Positions 4,284 through 46,216 of a stretch of 64,000 nt of DNA are shown here, in pieces. The stretch's first letter is position 1. Each line of letters opens with the position of its first letter. Source of the stretch: a bacterium. Its GTDB lineage: Bacteria > Cyanobacteriota > Vampirovibrionia > Gastranaerophilales > Gastranaerophilaceae. Made by a program: the position numbers and the translations under genes. The DNA lies in NCBI GenBank assembly GCA_017467605.1, contig JAFUSQ010000019.1, positions 1-64,000 on the forward strand. The letters run 5' to 3'. The notes under the pieces are model-generated. The model saw nothing but the letters and a program-made list of their open reading frames with translations, ran no database searches and was not told the DNA's origin.

Positions 4284-4355
4284 GGGCCTGTGGCGCAGCG
4301 GTAGCGCAGAGGACTCATAATCCTTTGGTCGTGGGTTCGAATCCCTCCGGGCCCA
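4284..4355 (+). tRNA. tRNA-Met (CAT anticodon), or lysidine-type tRNA-Ile2
   Basis: 72-nt cloverleaf. Acceptor GGGCCTG/CGGGCCC with one G-U pair and discriminator A; D stem GCGC/GCGC; anticodon stem GAGGA/TCCTT with loop CTCATAA; T loop TTCGAAT. The T stem has a T-T mismatch at its second pair. The anticodon stem lacks the three G-C pairs of an initiator, so it is an elongator tRNA-Met or a tRNA-Ile read after lysidine modification. CCA is not encoded. A terminator follows at 4364. Confidence 0.88.
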
Positions 4356-4363
4356 AATTTAAA

Positions 4364-4388
4364 AAAAAGAGCCTTTTGGCTCTTTTTT
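4364..4388. terminator. bidirectional terminator between tRNA and prepilin gene
   Basis: AAAAAGAGCC, TTTT loop, GGCTCTTTTTT. It can serve the tRNA (+) and the prepilin-like gene ending at 4413 (-). Confidence 0.85.
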
Positions 4389-4412
4389 AGTGCTTTAATT
4401 ACATTAATAAAA

Positions 4413-5357
4413 CTATTTTGCAGTATTTAAAACATACTTTGCTGCATTGGTTGCAGGAGCAACAGTTGAATTGTAAAATACAACAGGGAATACGTCACCA
4501 ATAGTTTTACTATCAACTATGCATGGTTCATCAAGATCAAAAGATGTAGTTCCAGTTTTACATTTTACTTCTTTATTTGGAGGTGTAGGTCCATTTACAT
4601 CAATAAAAGCCAAGCAATACCTAAAAGGGGAATCGACAGTAATATTAGATAATTTAGAATTTAAAGATGTTCCAACAGGAATATCACAATCCCCTTTTTG
4701 AGCAAATACTTGAAATGCAAATAATGACCCATCTGACAGCACATATGCACTTCCTCGTTCACCCCAATACATTGTAATAGCCAACATTTCTTCACTTGCC
4801 GCTAATATATTATATATATTAGTATTATCTAAAACTTTATCATTTGGATCTATATAAAAGTTTGTATAATATGCATCAATCGAAAAACCTTTTAAACTTC
4901 CATTAAATATTGCACAAAATGTCATATCCTTATCAGGAGTTTCACTTTTTTCTGTATAAGGATTGCCATTCCAAGGTCCATCACAAGATTCTGCATCTGA
5001 GAAATCAAAATCATAATTAGCTTTATTCAATCTTACTGCTTGATTTAATGTTGAAATTGTTTTCTTAAACTGACTTCTAAATTTTTGTCCGTTTGTATTT
5101 GCAATTAATGTTGGAATAGTCAATGCCGCGACTACACCGATAATGCCGAGGGTAATTAATACCTCTGCAAGGGTAAAAGCAGCCTTTTTGAAGTGAATAG
5201 GTAAATAAGTGATTAAGTAAATAAGTTCTTTACGGTTATTTTTTGTCATTCCGAACTCGTTTCGGAATCTATTTTCAGACCCTGAAACAAGTTCAGGGTG
5301 ACAGTTATTTGTGTCTCTGCGGAGAAATTGAATGTTGTTATTAAAACCTTTTTTCAT
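4413..5357 (-). CDS. prepilin-like exported protein with repeat-extended leader (XRE/prepilin cassette 1)
   Basis: 314 residues. The prepilin motif FTLAEVLITLGIIGVVAA starts at residue 61, with Ala rather than Gly at the cleavage position. The 60-residue leader is far longer than usual and includes in-frame translation of a palindromic repeat (CHPELVSGSE). The start is fixed by the AAAGGAAG ribosome site just before the ATG at 5357. There is no other in-frame ATG before the motif except one inside the repeat-derived part. The mature part has IDVNGPTPPNK, the shared D-x-N-G-x-x-x-P-N motif, and several cysteines. A perfect sigma-70 promoter lies upstream, and the divergent XRE gene at 5468 is its likely regulator. 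Confidence 0.85.
   Translation of the reverse strand: MKKGFNNNIQFLRRDTNNCHPELVSGSENRFRNEFGMTKNNRKELIYLITYLPIHFKKAAFTLAEVLITLGIIGVVAALTIPTLIANTNGQKFRSQFKKTISTLNQAVRLNKANYDFDFSDAESCDGPWNGNPYTEKSETPDKDMTFCAIFNGSLKGFSIDAYYTNFYIDPNDKVLDNTNIYNILAASEEMLAITMYWGERGSAYVLSDGSLFAFQVFAQKGDCDIPVGTSLNSKLSNITVDSPFRYCLAFIDVNGPTPPNKEVKCKTGTTSFDLDEPCIVDSKTIGDVFPVVFYNSTVAPATNAAKYVLNTAK
5246..5303. repeat. palindromic interspersed repeat inside prepilin leader
   Basis: Two inverted-repeat halves: CCGAACTCGTTTCGG and CCCTGAAACAAGTTCAGGG. Related copies are at 6231-6328, 10496-10526, 11046-11075, 48894-48994 and 53434-53560. Here it is in frame within the coding region. Confidence 0.8.
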
Positions 5358-5375
5358 ATAATCTTCCTTTCTTTT

Positions 5376-5421
5376 GTATCAATATCATACTACTTAGTAT
5401 CAATATTTTGATATTAATATC
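5376..5421. promoter_or_regulatory. probable operator for the cassette-1 XRE protein
   Basis: GTATCAATAT occurs twice, 21 bp apart (5376 and 5397), i.e. two helical turns, next to ATCAATATTTTGAT and the perfect palindrome GATATTAATATC (5410-5421). The block abuts the prepilin -10 box and covers its start point, as expected of a repressor site. The protein that binds it is inferred from position. Confidence 0.55.
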
Positions 5422-5450
5422 ATTATATTATCTTATTTTGTATTTGTCAA
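5422..5450 (-). promoter_or_regulatory. consensus sigma-70 promoter of the cassette-1 prepilin gene
   Basis: On the minus strand: TTGACA (5450-5445), 17-nt spacer, TATAAT (5427-5422). All twelve positions match consensus. Start point expected near 5415. Confidence 0.85.
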
Positions 5451-5467
5451 GATTATATAATTTTGGC

Positions 5468-5698
5468 ATGAAAGATGTCACAAAAAGAGCGCTTGGGAAA
5501 AACATTAAAATAGAACGCATAAGAAAAGATATTACGCAGGAGCAATTTGCTGAAATGATTGATATCAGTCTCAGTCATATAAGCAAAATTGAACAAGGAC
5601 TTACTTCACCTACAGCAATACTGCTTTACAAAATGTCACTTGTTCTAAAAATCCCAATGGAAGAATTTTTTAAAGGTATAGATATAAATCTCGCATAA
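5468..5698 (+). CDS. XRE-family transcriptional regulator (cassette 1)
   Basis: 76 residues, essentially one Cro/CI-type helix-turn-helix: TQEQFAEMIDISLSHISKIEQG at about residues 22-43. It is a DNA-binding protein without an effector domain. It is divergent from the prepilin-like gene at 4413, and the 110-bp gap holds the repeats expected for its operator, so a local repressor or autoregulator role is inferred. TATAAT at 5456-5461 ends 7 nt before the ATG and there is no ribosome site, so the message is probably leaderless. A longer reading frame from 5408 is possible, but its added residues would be translated promoter DNA. Confidence 0.85.
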   Translation: MKDVTKRALGKNIKIERIRKDITQEQFAEMIDISLSHISKIEQGLTSPTAILLYKMSLVLKIPMEEFFKGIDINLA

Positions 5699-5734
5699 AA
5701 AAACCTCTCAGAACAATATCAGAGAGGTTTTTTA
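5699..5734. terminator. bidirectional terminator closing the ribosomal operon and XRE gene
   Basis: AAACCTCTC (5701-5709) pairs with GAGAGGTTT (5722-5730), flanked by A and T runs. It ends both the XRE gene (+) and rplR (-), so the ribosomal operon stops after L18. Confidence 0.88.
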
Positions 5735-5752
5735 TTTTAGTTATGTTCAAAA

Positions 5753-6121
5753 TTAGAACATCAAGCCTGCTTCTCTTGCTGCTTCTGCCAATGCTGCAAT
5801 TCTACCATGGTATAAGAAACCGCCACGGTCAAACACTACGCATTCAATACCTGCTTTTTTAGCTTTTTGAGCGATTGCTTCACCTACAGCTTTTGCTGCA
5901 TCAATATTACCACCATGAGTTAATTTTTCTTTTAACTCTTTATCATTTGATGAAGCAGATGCAAGTGTTACATGGTTATCATCATCAATCAATTGAGCAT
6001 AAATATGTTTTGTACTTCTGTATACTGCAAGTCTTGGGAATTCAGCTGTACCTGCCAATTTTACTCTGATTGATCTGTGTCTTTTTTGAACAATTGGTTT
6101 TCTTTGTTGTTGTTTAATCAT
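5753..6121 (-). CDS. rplR: 50S ribosomal protein L18
   Basis: 122 residues, the normal length. L18 binds 5S rRNA and carries it into the large subunit. The basic N-terminus ([18 protein letters not shown]), [20 protein letters not shown] and the C-terminal [24 protein letters not shown] are typical. It is the last gene of this cluster: in most bacteria S5, L30, L15 and SecY would follow, but here a terminator and an XRE/prepilin cassette do. Start ATG at 6121 with a purine-rich ribosome site. Confidence 0.97.
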
Positions 6122-7196: not shown

Positions 7197-7592
7197 CTAG
7201 TATACGTAGCAAAGAACTTCGCCGCCAACGTTTTCTTTTCTGGCTTTTCTATCAGTTAACAACCCTTTTGGAGTTGAAACAATAGCAACACCCATTCCGC
7301 CTAAAACTTTTTGCAAGTTTTTAGCTTTTGAGTAGTGTCTCAAACCGGGAGTTGAAACTCTTTGTAATTTTGTAATTACAGGTTTGCCGTTTGCACCGTA
7401 TTTCAATGTAATAGTAATCACATTGAATTTTCCAACTTTTTTAACTTCATAATCAGAAATATAACCTTCTTCTTTTAAAAGTTTTGCTAATTCAACTTTT
7501 AATTTAGAAGCAGGAATATCAACTGTTTCATGCTTAACAGTGTTAGCATTTCTGATTCTTGTTAGCATATCTGCTATCGGATCTGTATTCAT
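7197..7592 (-). CDS. rpsH: 30S ribosomal protein S8
   Basis: 131 residues. Starts [16 protein letters not shown]; the C-terminus has [22 protein letters not shown], a standard S8 ending. S8 binds the central domain of 16S rRNA and is often the translational repressor of the spc operon. Two terminators (7836, 9112) separate it from S14 upstream, so it must be transcribed from a promoter in 7593-7840. No convincing consensus promoter is visible there. Confidence 0.96.
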
Positions 7593-7835
7593 TTTTCTTC
7601 CTTTTCTGGGACTTACTCCACAGTTATAGAGCAGTATCCTGTTAACTATAAACCCGCTTACCGAATTAATGTTGCCTCCAACTGTGCGTATCTAACAATC
7701 TAAAGAGCCGCCCCTTTAAACCTATATCCGCACCCAAAGACTTGCTTCGGCAGTTCGGAACTGTATTATTATGCTAAAATAAACATAAATGATTTGCAAG
7801 TAAAATAAATTGAAAAATAAAGATTTTGTAATAAA

Positions 7836-7868
7836 AGAAAGGTGGGTTGAAATATTTTCAACCCGCCT
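7836..7868 (-). terminator. terminator of the unknown gene at 7876
   Basis: 12-bp stem, GGTGGGTTGAAA (7841-7852) with TTTCAACCCGCC (7856-7867), followed on the minus strand by a T-rich tract. It lies between the inserted gene and S8. Confidence 0.8.
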
Positions 7869-7875
7869 TAGCTTT

Positions 7876-8448
7876 TTACATTGTTGTATCAACCCCCGGA
7901 CCATTGACTTCTCTTTTTTGAACGGCTAAATTTTCTTTAAATTTTCCGTCAGGTTGTTGTATTTTTTCTTTGTATTCATAAGTTCTGGTTGCACTATCAT
8001 TTTTATCTAAAATAATCTTGTTATCAGAACTTCTTTTAGCAGATCTGTCTGTATAACCACCATGTTTTTTATTAAATTTAGTAGTTCTATATTTAGATTC
8101 TATATCTACATGATCATCATTATTGTCACCTGAAACATCTATTTCACAATTTTGCACTTCTTTGCCAATAATATGGTCATCTTTTTTAGAACCTTTTACT
8201 TTTGCATTTTGAACACCGTTAAGAATAGTTTCAGTATCATAATCAAAAGACTGCCACATGGTTAATTCTCTTGAGCGCATACTTGCATCACCGCTTTGTT
8301 CAGGATATTCAGCCGTAACTCCGGATTTAAATTCAATATAATACATTTTTTGTCCGTTTACATTTTTGACTTTTGCAGATTTGACCTGATTCCAATTAAA
8401 ATCAACTCCGCCAAAATTTTTGTACATAATCGGTTCTTTACCACTCAT
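7876..8448 (-). CDS. unknown cytoplasmic protein inserted in ribosomal cluster
   Basis: 190 residues, hydrophilic, with no signal peptide or membrane segment. Family not recognised. It is rich in Lys/Asp with a DDHIIGKEVQNCEIDVSG stretch. Start ATG at 8448 behind AAGGAG. It sits between S14 and S8 and faces the XRE gene at 8743 across a 294-bp gap, the same layout as the XRE/prepilin cassettes. Its promoter motif (8512-8540) is shared with three other unknown genes (17068, 30527, 33116). It has its own terminator. Likely an accessory gene acquired with its regulator. Confidence 0.65.
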   Translation of the reverse strand: MSGKEPIMYKNFGGVDFNWNQVKSAKVKNVNGQKMYYIEFKSGVTAEYPEQSGDASMRSRELTMWQSFDYDTETILNGVQNAKVKGSKKDDHIIGKEVQNCEIDVSGDNNDDHVDIESKYRTTKFNKKHGGYTDRSAKRSSDNKIILDKNDSATRTYEYKEKIQQPDGKFKENLAVQKREVNGPGVDTTM

Positions 8449-8511
8449 AATTAAATCTCCTTAAATTTTTGTACCTCGTATGTTGTTAATTGCAATTACA
8501 CTTCATATTCA

Positions 8512-8540
8512 TGTAAAAACATTAGATATTAAGAAATTGC
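8512..8540 (-). promoter_or_regulatory. shared GCAATT-17-TTTACA promoter-like motif
   Basis: Minus strand: GCAATT (8540-8535), 17 nt, TTTACA (8517-8512). The same two blocks at the same spacing precede the genes starting at 17397, 31690 and 33526. A further 18 nt around TTTACA are identical to the copy at 17454. Confidence 0.5.
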
Positions 8541-8742
8541 ATGAATAACGTTATTTGCTTAATAATTATTTACAATTTAAAATATAGCTATTATGGTTGT
8601 ATTTATTGGATTTTAAGCTAAATTTCTCTATTTTTATATGTGGACATAAATATAGATATACCAATGTAAATACCCATTAAGAAGGTTTATAAAGAGACAT
8701 AAATGAGGTATACATAATACAAAAGGTAGGATATATTGATTT

Positions 8743-9108
8743 ATGATTTTTGATGACAAAAAATATATCGCTAAAAAAATTAAAGAATACAGGAAAAAAT
8801 TAGGTGTAACCCAAGCTGAACTTGCGGAAAAAATTGATATTGGAACAAAACAAATTTCAAGAATTGAAGTTGGGGATTTTTACCCCTCACTTAATACTTT
8901 CTTTAAAATAGTAGAAACTTTAAATATCGATCTGAACGAATTTATTACAAATACTCCTAACGAAAAAAATAAAACAAGAAAAAAACTTATAAATATTATA
9001 TACAATGCATCAGAAGAAGAATTACACTTTTATGACAGGTTAATCACCTTCGCAAATGATGAAAGTGCAGAATTAAAGAAAAATTTGATGTTAAAAAGAG
9101 TTTATTAA
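8743..9108 (+). CDS. XRE-family regulator with C-terminal helical domain
   Basis: 121 residues. N-terminal helix-turn-helix at about residues 20-42 (TQAELAEKIDIGTKQISRIE); residues 75-110 form a second helical segment (EEELHFYDRLITFAND) similar in position to those of the XRE proteins at 27427 and 37249, probably a dimerisation unit. TATATT (8732-8737) ends 6 nt before the ATG and a TATACA box lies 17 nt further up, so the message is probably leaderless. It is divergent from the unknown gene at 7876, its likely target, and lies inside the ribosomal cluster on the opposite strand. Confidence 0.82.
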   Translation: MIFDDKKYIAKKIKEYRKKLGVTQAELAEKIDIGTKQISRIEVGDFYPSLNTFFKIVETLNIDLNEFITNTPNEKNKTRKKLINIIYNASEEELHFYDRLITFANDESAELKKNLMLKRVY

Positions 9109-9111
9109 TAC

Positions 9112-9139
9112 AAAAAGAACGGCATATACCGTTCTTTTT
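9112..9139. terminator. bidirectional terminator between XRE gene and rpsN
   Basis: AAAAAGAACGG (9112-9122), 6-nt loop, CCGTTCTTTTT (9129-9139). Works in both directions, so it also ends the S10-to-S14 transcript. Confidence 0.88.
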
Positions 9140-9191
9140 AATGCATTATTATATTACAAGCACACAAGGGACTTATATTTACCCCCCCCGC

Positions 9192-9398
9192 CTACCAGCT
9201 TGCTTTTGTAACACCAGGCAACAAACCTTCGTGTGCCATTTTTCTTAAACAAATTCTGCACAAACCGAAATCTCTGTGGAATCCATGAGGTCTGCCACAA
9301 ATAGAACATCTGTTGTGAAGTCTTACTGTTGGGTATTTTCCGGCAGCAGCAAGTTTTTCTCGTCTAAGTTCTTTGTTAATCATCGCTTTCTTAGCCAT
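9192..9398 (-). CDS. rpsN: 30S ribosomal protein S14, zinc-binding type
   Basis: 68 residues, the short form with a zinc site: [26 protein letters not shown] has two CxxC pairs 12 residues apart. It belongs to the 3' domain of the small subunit. Last gene of the upstream half of the split cluster; a run of eight C (G on its own strand) and the GGGGTAAATAT motif follow the stop codon, then the terminator at 9112. Start ATG at 9398 behind AAGGAGAAAT. Confidence 0.97.
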
Positions 9399-27862: not shown

Positions 27863-27906
27863 TAATAAAAATATGTCATTAATAAGGAATTATGGAGGTA
27901 TAATTG

Positions 27907-28575
27907 ATGAATAAAAAAATAGCATTCACCCTTGCAGAAACTCTAATAACAATCGGTATAATCGGAGTTGTCGCAGCAATAACAATACCGAATTTGATAA
28001 AAAATTATCAAAAATCTCAAATTGAATTATCTCTAAAACGCAGTTATTCCATAATGACACAGGCTTTAAAAATGTCTATAGCAGAAAATGGAGATATTGA
28101 TGGCTGGAAATTACCACAAAATGATACTGCAGATGAATGTCACGATTTTGTTAAAACATATATTTTCCCTTATATGAAAGTAATCAATGATTGTGGTGTA
28201 GAGCAAGGTTGTTTTGGAAATCCCGAATACTTAATGAATGGTTCAATTGCAGAAAATATAAATGATACTAAAGGTAAAACAATTAAATTTACAACAATAG
28301 ACGGAATAAATATTGCTGTGTATACTTCCGGCACAAGTAATACTATACATATATATTTTGATGTAAATGGCAATAAAAAGCCAAATACAAGAGGGAAAGA
28401 CATATTTGAATTCATAATACCGGTATTTACAGAACAAAATAATACAGAACATATATTATTACCTAATGGGTATTACGATAATACAAATGACTGCAAAACA
28501 AATAATAGCGGTTTTGTATGCGCAAAACTAATTTTTAACAATAATTGGAAATTTCCTAAAGATTATCCTTGGTAG
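27907..28575 (+). CDS. prepilin-like exported protein (cassette 2)
   Basis: 222 residues. Shortest leader of the set: six residues (MNKKIA) before FTLAETLITIGIIGVVAA. GGAGG at 27894-27898 sets the ATG at 27907. Mature part has Cys residues (DECHDF, NDCGVEQGC), YFDVNGNKKPNTRGKDIFEF and the C-terminal FNNNWKFPKDYPW shared with the genes at 1 and 37718. Likely a type IV pilus or type II secretion (pseudo)pilin. The divergent XRE gene at 27427 is the likely regulator. Convergent with hydF, overlapping it by 13 bp. Confidence 0.88.
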   Translation: MNKKIAFTLAETLITIGIIGVVAAITIPNLIKNYQKSQIELSLKRSYSIMTQALKMSIAENGDIDGWKLPQNDTADECHDFVKTYIFPYMKVINDCGVEQGCFGNPEYLMNGSIAENINDTKGKTIKFTTIDGINIAVYTSGTSNTIHIYFDVNGNKKPNTRGKDIFEFIIPVFTEQNNTEHILLPNGYYDNTNDCKTNNSGFVCAKLIFNNNWKFPKDYPW

Positions 28576-37665: not shown

Positions 37666-37717
37666 AGAATTATAACTATGCATTTACTTATAAAAAGATA
37701 GTTTGAAAGGAGAAAAA

Positions 37718-38422
37718 ATGAGTAATGTATTAAATAAGGTACTTCACCATACGATTCAAAACAGTAACAGTCTACTAACAAAATATAGAGCCTTCACATT
37801 AGCCGAAGTACTGATAACTATTGGTATAATCGGTGTTGTTGCAGCACTAACAATCCCCAATTTAATAAATAACTATAAAAAGCAATCTACTGCTATACAA
37901 TTAAAATCAGAGTATAGCAAAATATTACAAGCCATCAAACTATCTATTACTGATAACGGAGATCCTTCAAGCTGGGATAAAGATAATAAAACTTTTTTAG
38001 CAAAATATATTGTACCTTATTTATCCGGAGCATCACCTTATAATAATCACTATAATATAATAATTTTGAGTTCAAAAGTAAGAAATAACAACGAGAAAAA
38101 TCTGTGGTATTATTGGCCTTGGAGTAAAAATGACTCTCATTTATATATTTTAAAGAGCGGCACAATCATAAACTACACAAACGGATATTTAACAATTGAC
38201 ATAAACGGACCCTCTAAACCAAACAAGCTAGGTATTGATTCATTTGTTTTTGTTATTGATGATAAATCTGTTTTATCCCCTCTTACATGTAGTGCAACAG
38301 GTACAATGAGTTGTGTCAGAGATAACACTTGGGAATATTATCGCGGAGGGTGTTGTGCTTCTCTAATAAAAAACAATAATTGGAAAATTCCTAAAGATTA
38401 CCCTTGGGGAAATGGACAATAA
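37718..38422 (+). CDS. prepilin-like exported protein (cassette 3)
   Basis: 234 residues from the ATG at 37718 behind AAAGGAG (a TTG at 37703 is rejected). Leader of 25 residues ending TKYRA before FTLAEVLITIGIIGVVAA. Mature part has IDINGPSKPNKLGIDSFVF, a cysteine-rich C-terminal part (LTCSATGTMSCVRD, GGCCASL) and the shared NNNWKIPKDYPWGNGQ end. Bidirectional terminator follows. Likely pilin or pseudopilin under control of the XRE protein at 37249. Confidence 0.88.
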   Translation: MSNVLNKVLHHTIQNSNSLLTKYRAFTLAEVLITIGIIGVVAALTIPNLINNYKKQSTAIQLKSEYSKILQAIKLSITDNGDPSSWDKDNKTFLAKYIVPYLSGASPYNNHYNIIILSSKVRNNNEKNLWYYWPWSKNDSHLYILKSGTIINYTNGYLTIDINGPSKPNKLGIDSFVFVIDDKSVLSPLTCSATGTMSCVRDNTWEYYRGGCCASLIKNNNWKIPKDYPWGNGQ

Positions 38423-45163: not shown

Positions 45164-45430
45164 TTATTCCGACTGAAACCAATTTTCTGAAAGTTCACTC
45201 ATTACCATTTTCATTAATTCGTCAGGCTTTTTGTAAAAAGCCTCAGCAAATTTGCAAAATGTAGAAATTTGTGGATCTAATCTGCCCTGTTCTGCCAGTA
45301 ACAAAGTCGTTTTTGACATATTCATTCCATATGCAACAGAACGTGCTGACAAATTTGCTTCCTGTCTTAATCTGCTAACTACACGCCCCAAAGCCTCTGA
45401 CAATTCTTTTTTACGTGTCCCATCTTGCAT
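45164..45430 (-). CDS. XRE-family regulator (cassette 4)
   Basis: 88 residues. Helix-turn-helix of a different subtype from the other three: RLRQEANLSARSVAYGMNMSKTTLLLAEQGRLDP at about 20-53. No effector domain. Its ATG at 45430 overlaps the -35 box of the divergent prepilin gene; on its own strand TAAAAT ends 7 nt before the ATG, so the message may be leaderless. The perfect 18-bp palindrome at 45462 is the likely binding site for autoregulation and prepilin repression. Confidence 0.85.
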   Translation of the reverse strand: MQDGTRKKELSEALGRVVSRLRQEANLSARSVAYGMNMSKTTLLLAEQGRLDPQISTFCKFAEAFYKKPDELMKMVMSELSENWFQSE

Positions 45431-45453
45431 ATTTTTATTTTAAATGTTATACT
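45425..45453 (+). promoter_or_regulatory. promoter of the cassette-4 prepilin gene
   Basis: TTGCAT (45425-45430), 17 nt, TATACT (45448-45453). Start point expected at about 45460, directly before the palindrome. Confidence 0.7.
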
Positions 45454-45461
45454 ATATTTAG

Positions 45462-45479
45462 TGGACATAATTATGTCCA
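45462..45479. promoter_or_regulatory. perfect 18-bp operator palindrome
   Basis: TGGACATAATTATGTCCA is identical to its reverse complement. It lies at about +2 to +19 of the prepilin transcript, a classical repressor position. A half-site TGTGGACATAA occurs in the gap before the XRE gene at 8743 (near 8640). Confidence 0.8.
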
Positions 45480-45496
45480 TACTAAAGGAGGATTGT

Positions 45497-46216
45497 ATGA
45501 AGCAAAAAATTTGGAATATTGAGAAAGTAACAATGCCCGCAGAGCAAGGGAAAAAGAAGCCGGGGTTTACCCTTGCCGAGACCCTCATAACAATCGGAAT
45601 AATCGGGGTTGTTGCAGCGGTGACTATTCCTAATCTAATGCAAAATTATTTTGAAAAACGCACAGTCAACCAGCTTAGAGAAGTTCAATCGATTTTAGCA
45701 CAGGCATTAAGGCATGCTGAACAAGAATATGGTGATGTTTCAGGGTGGGGATTGAATGGAAACAACTCAGAAAGTGCGTTAAAAATAGCAGAAAATATAA
45801 AACCGTTTTTAAAACTCGCAAATGATTGCGGGATTAATGACACAAAATACACTTGTTTGTCACAAAATTATTATAATTTATTAAATGGAGACTATTCTCA
45901 AGCATATGCCACTGATAACAGATATTACAAAGTTTCGCTATTGAATAGTGCAACAATATGGTGGAGAAATGGAGGCAGCAATGCACTTGATACAAGGACA
46001 ATAATAACTTTTTTTGTTGATACGAACGGTAAAAATCCGCCAAATACATGGGGAAAAGATACATTTGCATTTGAATACTATGAAAATATCGGTTTACTAC
46101 CTCTTGGCAGCCAAAATTCATCTTACCCCAGCGAACAGAATTGCAATAAAAATAATGATGGATATGGCTGCGCATATTATGTTTTACAAAACAATAATAT
46201 GAATTATTTACATTAA
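45497..46216 (+). CDS. prepilin-like exported protein (cassette 4)
   Basis: 239 residues from the ATG at 45497 behind AAAGGAGG. Leader of about 25 residues ending KKKPG before FTLAETLITIGIIGVVAA. Mature part: VDTNGKNPPNTWGKDTFAFEYY, paired cysteines, and an Asn-rich end (QNNNMNYLH) instead of the WKIPKDYPW end of the others. The leader resembles that of the gene at 1 (CCCGCAG..AAGGGAAAAAGAAG-like DNA), so it may derive from a repeat too. Divergent from the XRE gene at 45164. Confidence 0.88.
   Translation: MKQKIWNIEKVTMPAEQGKKKPGFTLAETLITIGIIGVVAAVTIPNLMQNYFEKRTVNQLREVQSILAQALRHAEQEYGDVSGWGLNGNNSESALKIAENIKPFLKLANDCGINDTKYTCLSQNYYNLLNGDYSQAYATDNRYYKVSLLNSATIWWRNGGSNALDTRTIITFFVDTNGKNPPNTWGKDTFAFEYYENIGLLPLGSQNSSYPSEQNCNKNNDGYGCAYYVLQNNNMNYLH

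Follow-up and report, generated by a model that had tools for sequence, protein, structure and literature searches.

A structured leader RNA upstream of the S8 gene and a probable transcription boundary within the ribosomal protein cluster of Gastranaerophilaceae

Why are the genes for ribosomal proteins S14 and S8 separated by 1,599 nt in an otherwise compact ribosomal protein cluster, and does the DNA between them account for the separation? The window analysed here, a stretch of 64,000 nucleotides (assembly GCA_017467605.1, contig JAFUSQ010000019.1, positions 1 to 64,000), comes from a Gastranaerophilales (Melainabacteria) MAG of 2.19 Mb that is 96.5% complete. Gastranaerophilaceae are uncultured, mostly gut-derived relatives of cyanobacteria. 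The cluster runs from S10 to L18 on the minus strand, and every gap within it is 288 nt or less except that between rpsN (S14; 9192–9398), the closing gene of the upstream unit, and rpsH (S8; 7197–7592, ATG at 7592). Downstream lie rplF (L6; 6369–6908) and rplR (L18; 5753–6121), the final gene of the cluster; S5, L30, L15 and SecY do not follow, the Gastranaerophilaceae cluster stopping at L18. Beyond L18, positions 4284–5753 hold an XRE gene (5408–5698, plus strand), a gene for a prepilin-like protein (4413–5357, minus strand) and a tRNA (4284–4355, plus strand). Other prepilin-like proteins are encoded in the window at 27904–28575, 37703–38422 and 45425–46216, and all four have near-identical N-termini (AFTLAEVLITxGIIGVVAALTIP) and divergent C-terminal parts.

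The contents of the S14–S8 gap are as the original prediction described them. An XRE-family HTH regulator is encoded on the plus strand (8743–9108; Pfam HTH_3, E = 1.8e-15), and its divergent partner, an ORF of 190 aa, on the minus strand (7876–8448). An inverted repeat at 9112–9139 (14/14-nt arms, 93%), U-rich on both strands, would serve as a bidirectional hairpin terminator common to S14 and the XRE gene, and a second inverted repeat (7839–7869), lying between the 190-aa ORF and the S8 promoter, forms the hairpin terminator of that ORF. The prediction took this self-terminated DNA to be an insertion that had split the cluster, leaving S8-L6-L18 to be transcribed separately.

We located S8 in 136 of 146 family genomes and 42 of 46 genus genomes, and compared about 100 stretches, each of up to 20 kb, around it. 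The S14–S8 gap exceeds 350 nt in 33 of 81 distinct family genomes, and in 16 further genomes S14 is detached and far away; the 14 gaps from S10 to S14, pooled, exceed that length only twice, the S8–L6 gap in 10 of 99 genomes and the L6–L18 gap in 19 of 99. In all 20 genomes from the other families within the class, S14 and S8 are 13–74 nt apart. Among 20 genomes representing other classes in the phylum, 6 have S14 in the cluster, at 12–100 nt from S8, and 14 have it outside the cluster. On a ribosomal protein tree, the open junction is confined to Gastranaerophilaceae. Large gaps are scattered over many genera with differing contents, which points to repeated, independent gains. In one genome (locus L152, G086), the S3–S14 half is inverted relative to S8-L18, 3.1 kb away, with the rearrangement exactly at the S14–S8 boundary. 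The L6–L18 gap of many family genomes (for example at L210, L211, L214 and L224) holds a recurring ORF of about 100 aa whose N-terminus carries the motif F[ST]G[IV]Y (MKVSFSGIY...). Another ORF of about 100 aa (SFAGKYSLNANQ...) is found repeatedly, in antisense orientation, within the S14–S8 gap in four genera.

Terminator-like hairpins occur after S14 in 41 of 82 family genomes, including 26 of the 31 with gaps of at least 400 nt, and in 0 of 26 outgroups; within the family they are found after L18 in 84 of 97 genomes, after S8 in 25 of 103 and after other genes in 0–9%. A search for an S8 promoter, which the original prediction had called for, yielded a promoter-like pair in the window, TTGCAA (7799–7794) and TAGCAT (7776–7771) separated by 17 nt on the minus strand, with a predicted start near 7764. 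Such pairs precede 46 of 92 S8 leaders, compared with 9.5 in shuffled sequences, and their distances repeat. Because of the S14 terminators and the S8 promoter, we conclude that S8-L6-L18 is almost certainly a transcription unit of its own, in agreement with the original prediction. Among family genomes with gaps of 90–200 nt, a terminator-like site follows S14 in only 3 of 26; since terminators are rare there, the leader in these approximately 26 genomes probably sits within a continuous operon, and a leader alone does not prove separate transcription.

What precedes S8 at this boundary is a feature that the original prediction missed: on the minus strand, positions 7768–7592 form a structured and conserved leader of S8, with the promoter-like pair in front of it. 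A covariance model of the leader RNA, R1, matched positions 7604–7768 with 88 bits (E = 4.8e-16), its sole match in the whole genome. The leader contains two S8-binding-like hairpins. Hairpin 1 (7654–7758) has the 5′ arm CCGAACUGCCGA (7758–7747) and the 3′ arm UCGGUAAGCGG (7664–7654). Hairpin 2 (GGAUACUGCUC ... GAGUAAGUCC; 7609–7639) lies directly upstream of a Shine-Dalgarno-like AAGGAAG (7597–7603). The sequence ACAGUU (7759–7764), which begins at the predicted first base of the leader, would pair with AACUGU in the loop of hairpin 2 (7620–7625), and this pairing recurs in the leader alignment. Searches of Rfam 15 with the leader, at the gathering score and at a permissive E-value, returned chance matches only.

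The structure is supported by covariation. We aligned 37 two-site leaders with MAFFT without reference to structure. The paired fraction was 94.2% overall, 96.5% in hairpin 1 and 99.4% in hairpin 2; selecting leaders by descriptor (see below) lifts these percentages, and has no such effect on the choice among pair types. Double changes were found in 16 of 25 pairs, and the covariation score was 0.315, compared with 0.178 ± 0.010 after shuffling and at most 0.080 with slid partners. Helices predicted by RNAalifold largely agree with those proposed. The ACAGUU/AACUGU pairing was 82.7% paired with double changes in four of its six pairs, making it a candidate pseudoknot. Searches with R1 are independent of the descriptor. 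Of 12 family genomes searched, 11 gave a single strong match each, always immediately 5′ of S8, and six of the genomes had played no part in building the model. In 48 genomes from other families, no match was better than E = 0.38.

Across genera, a motif ACUGC ... GUAAGU, flanked by covarying stems, repeats before S8. Apart from the reversed order of its strands, it corresponds to the core of 16S rRNA helix 21 that binds S8. Helix 21 was taken from a genome of the same genus, the MAG of the window having no 16S of its own. In hairpin 1 of the window, the core equivalents are G640 A641 A642 C643 U644 on one strand and U594 A595 A596 G597 C598 on the other. Family leaders have equivalents of A595-(A596-U644), G597-C643, N641, A642 and the 640-598 pair, with the latter varying between G-C, A-U and U-A; the deviations in hairpin 1 are G-C or U-A instead of A-U and A or G instead of U641. 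The core is flanked by two covarying helices, its strand order is permuted as in the Escherichia coli spc mRNA, and it lies in the S8-encoding mRNA directly upstream of the S8 gene.

We wrote a descriptor that combines features of the family leaders with the contacts published for the core (PMC4176348), and did so before viewing the E. coli mRNA sequence. The E. coli S10-spc region served as a positive control: the sole match there, at rplE +7, was the known operator of S8, where the U644 equivalent lies at +11 and the A595/A596 equivalents at +80/+81, as published (PMC4176348). The descriptor matched 72 of 85 family S8 upstream regions, at most one region for any of 15 other ribosomal protein genes, and 12 of 1,700 shuffled sequences; it found no core site in 40 outgroup S8 regions. 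Over all family loci (3.64 Mb of strand sequence), 120 sites preceded S8 and 15 lay at other positions. Under the strict descriptor, 43 of 107 genomes have two sites, 51 have one and 13 have none. This first version was too strict for compensatory variants, and a relaxed version, with low background, recovered 7 of the 13; the 6 of 107 genomes without a core under the rules used include genus g18, with its 40-nt gaps. Taken together, sequence, covariation and the E. coli control identify the repeated elements of the leader as helix-21-like cores.

A leader that senses some other ligand, a metabolite or another ribosomal protein, and resembles helix 21 incidentally would explain why long leaders conserve more than a minimal S8 site needs (AAGC...GAGCAA, AUUAAUU and the pseudoknot). 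However, the short leaders of basal genera consist of the S8 core hairpin alone, the element occurs only before S8, a descriptor derived from helix 21 also recovers the operator of E. coli, and Rfam offers no riboswitch match. We therefore consider another ligand very unlikely, and take the leader to be a probable site of S8 autoregulation of the S8-L6-L18 unit.

On this autoregulatory reading, transcription from upstream would end at the terminator after S14, judging from the hairpins there, and S8-L6-L18 would start at its own promoter with a leader carrying one helix-21 core or, as in the window, two. Free S8 in excess of rRNA would most likely bind the leader. In the window, a few nucleotides separate the end of hairpin 2 from the Shine-Dalgarno sequence, and in compact one-site leaders the core hairpin occupies that place. 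Because the Shine-Dalgarno sequence adjoins the hairpin closest to the start codon, bound S8 would hinder 30S loading and block translation of S8 and of the genes that follow it, L6 and L18. The hairpins are not followed by a U-run, making attenuation less likely; we infer, solely from hairpin position, a block of translation rather than attenuation or decay.

If the boundary belongs to the family, how old is the DNA that occupies it in the window? The proposal that a recent, self-terminated insertion split a normal S14-S8 operon, with the S8-L6-L18 promoter acquired later, draws on the gap contents of the closest relatives, which differ (945 nt with no ORF of at least 55 aa in G139; 1,461 nt with a 327-aa ORF in G179), so that the content of the window's gap is lineage-specific. 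It is contradicted as the origin of the split, since almost every member of the family, insert-free basal genera included, has an open junction and a leader belonging to S8, in most cases in the absence of the window's insert, and since XRE orthologs hold the same place in other genera. We consider it very unlikely; recent insertion stands only as a statement about the age of the cargo. The boundary is probably owed to the structured leader immediately in front of S8.

A search of 84,980 species genomes returned just four more XRE proteins with 70–74% identity to that of the window, two of them being the G140 and G143 loci of the family set; G075 of the family set adds another ortholog. Four of these five lie in the S14–S8 interval or directly upstream of S8, and one (L223) is on a contig without ribosomal protein genes. 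Including the window, the six orthologs face five unrelated protein families divergently. The possibility raised with the original prediction, that relatives carry the same insertion as an ancestral state, is thus borne out for the XRE gene, which lies directly upstream of S8 in other genera, but not for its partners, which differ. The region between XRE and partner is conserved in all six: next to the start of XRE lie tandem repeats of the ACATAAAT type, and toward the partner gene lies TATTAAGAAATT. The shared intergenic region and the unrelated partners indicate that regulator and divergent promoter were kept while the driven gene was exchanged. In the window, a tandem 19-nt repeat between the two genes (8633–8704; TTTATATGTGGACATAAAT / TTTATAAAGAGACATAAAT, 53 nt apart) is probably the XRE operator, with copy 1 (GGACATAAATATAG) at 8642–8655 and copy 2 (AGACATAAATGAGGTATAC), conserved across the XRE orthologs, at 8695–8713; the conserved element TATTAAGAAATTGC is at 8527–8540, on the partner side. 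A general rule pairing XRE with a divergent partner was rejected: genes for glycosyltransferases and other proteins likewise stand divergent to distant XRE paralogs, and divergence alone is therefore not special. The genome of the window has 18 XRE matches (E ≤ 1e-12 to the window's XRE), compared with 0–6 in other family genomes.

The 190-aa protein had no match above cut-off in Pfam, NCBIfam, PHROGs or PADLOC. Its 17 distant homologs (22–33% identity) are found only in the family, and several face other XRE genes. Homologs L041–L058 share the N-terminal half (GG..FN.N...K......G.K.Y.V.FK.G....YP.Q), often opposite an unrelated XRE, and L045 and L055 adjoin ribosomal protein S16. An AlphaFold model is all-beta (pLDDT 87.5), and a fold search with it gave no match at E ≤ 0.001 in the PDB or among viral models. 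Our guess is that the protein is repeat-like and either secreted or located at the surface.

The XRE gene and its partner might instead be a toxin-antitoxin, defence or phage-derived module, selfish within an essential operon, with the split serving its maintenance. XRE matches antitoxin and phage-repressor models weakly, and an ortholog stays directly upstream of S8 in several genera. However, the NCBIfam matches are below curated cut-offs and all matches are to generic HTH domains, the partner proteins show no relationship among themselves or with families of toxins or defence proteins, and the ortholog L223 has no ribosomal genes on its contig. An insertion sequence, prophage or integrative element was rejected after no transposase, integrase, clear terminal inverted repeats or target-site duplication were found; a type II toxin-antitoxin pair was rejected because no toxin family lies beside XRE, the divergent genes do not form one operon and the HTH matches are generic. 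We regard a selfish module as unlikely. Under the preferred reading, a family-specific boundary, unrelated genes would have piled up repeatedly at the S14–S8 junction because it no longer needs read-through, and the XRE gene with its partner would be an example of such cargo. Regulator, divergent promoter and partner gene would then make up a self-contained set that is not expected to take part in ribosome synthesis.

The best overall explanation, to which we assign a probability of roughly 80%, is that the S14–S8 junction is a recurrent transcription-unit boundary particular to Gastranaerophilaceae, with an S8 leader bearing a helix-21 core, autoregulation and a site permissive for cargo. One core site is present in both basal clades and two sites in only one of them. 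The ribosomal protein tree suggests an order of events in which the leader came first, followed by promoter and terminator, then cargo, then detachment. The fuller scenario, in which an S8 autoregulatory leader independent of the gammaproteobacterial spc operator, with pseudoknot-linked tandem helix-21 mimics, freed S8-L6-L18 and opened a hotspot that repeatedly paired XRE with unrelated genes, we consider likely. The genomes form a natural series, from the compact operon through a leader inside the operon and a separate unit with cargo to full detachment. The series illustrates how feedback control acquired by some of its genes may lead to the break-up of a highly conserved operon.

The leader, rather than the insert, is the important feature of this locus. 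It is of the same kind as known S8 operators, and we found no earlier description of it in the open-access literature: S8 is named only in the references of a survey of 20 new ribosomal protein leaders (PMC7247131), and the main text of a human-microbiome RNA survey (PMC8040213) does not mention the Gastranaerophilaceae lineage. The E. coli S8 operator is located at rplE; for species outside the gammaproteobacteria, a 2024 review (PMC10931766) calls the control of the spc block unknown and sees no advance in phylogenetic work. Like the autogenous leaders of other ribosomal protein genes (L20, S15, S6:S18, L10 and the 20 candidates of PMC7247131), it precedes a ribosomal protein gene, but it has no significant Rfam 15 match. 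It shares with 16S helix 21 A595, A596-U644, G597-C643, A642 and the 598-640 pair, and differs in its reversed strand order and in the variation of the 640-598 pair in hairpin 1 (G-C, A-U, U-A). With the E. coli spc operator at the rplE start it shares the helix-21 core (xNACUG / UAAGy), the permuted topology with the ACUG strand first, and its location in the mRNA encoding S8 (PMC4176348). In contrast, the Gastranaerophilaceae leader belongs to a family of the cyanobacterial phylum, lies directly before rpsH and not at rplE, often has two tandem copies and a candidate pseudoknot, and heads its own unit. An E. coli-type site at the L5 (rplE) start is absent from the family (0 of 80), and we therefore class the leader as the same kind as the spc operator and not the same element. 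If this is correct, the leader would be the second S8 operator, apparently of independent origin, placed at the gene for S8 itself and present in duplicate, and convergence in ribosomal protein mimicry can thereby be tested. As in reported gene insertions at transcription-unit borders, the inserted genes lie at such a border; here, however, the border is inside the spc block, between S14 and S8, and has been reused with differing cargo in many genera.
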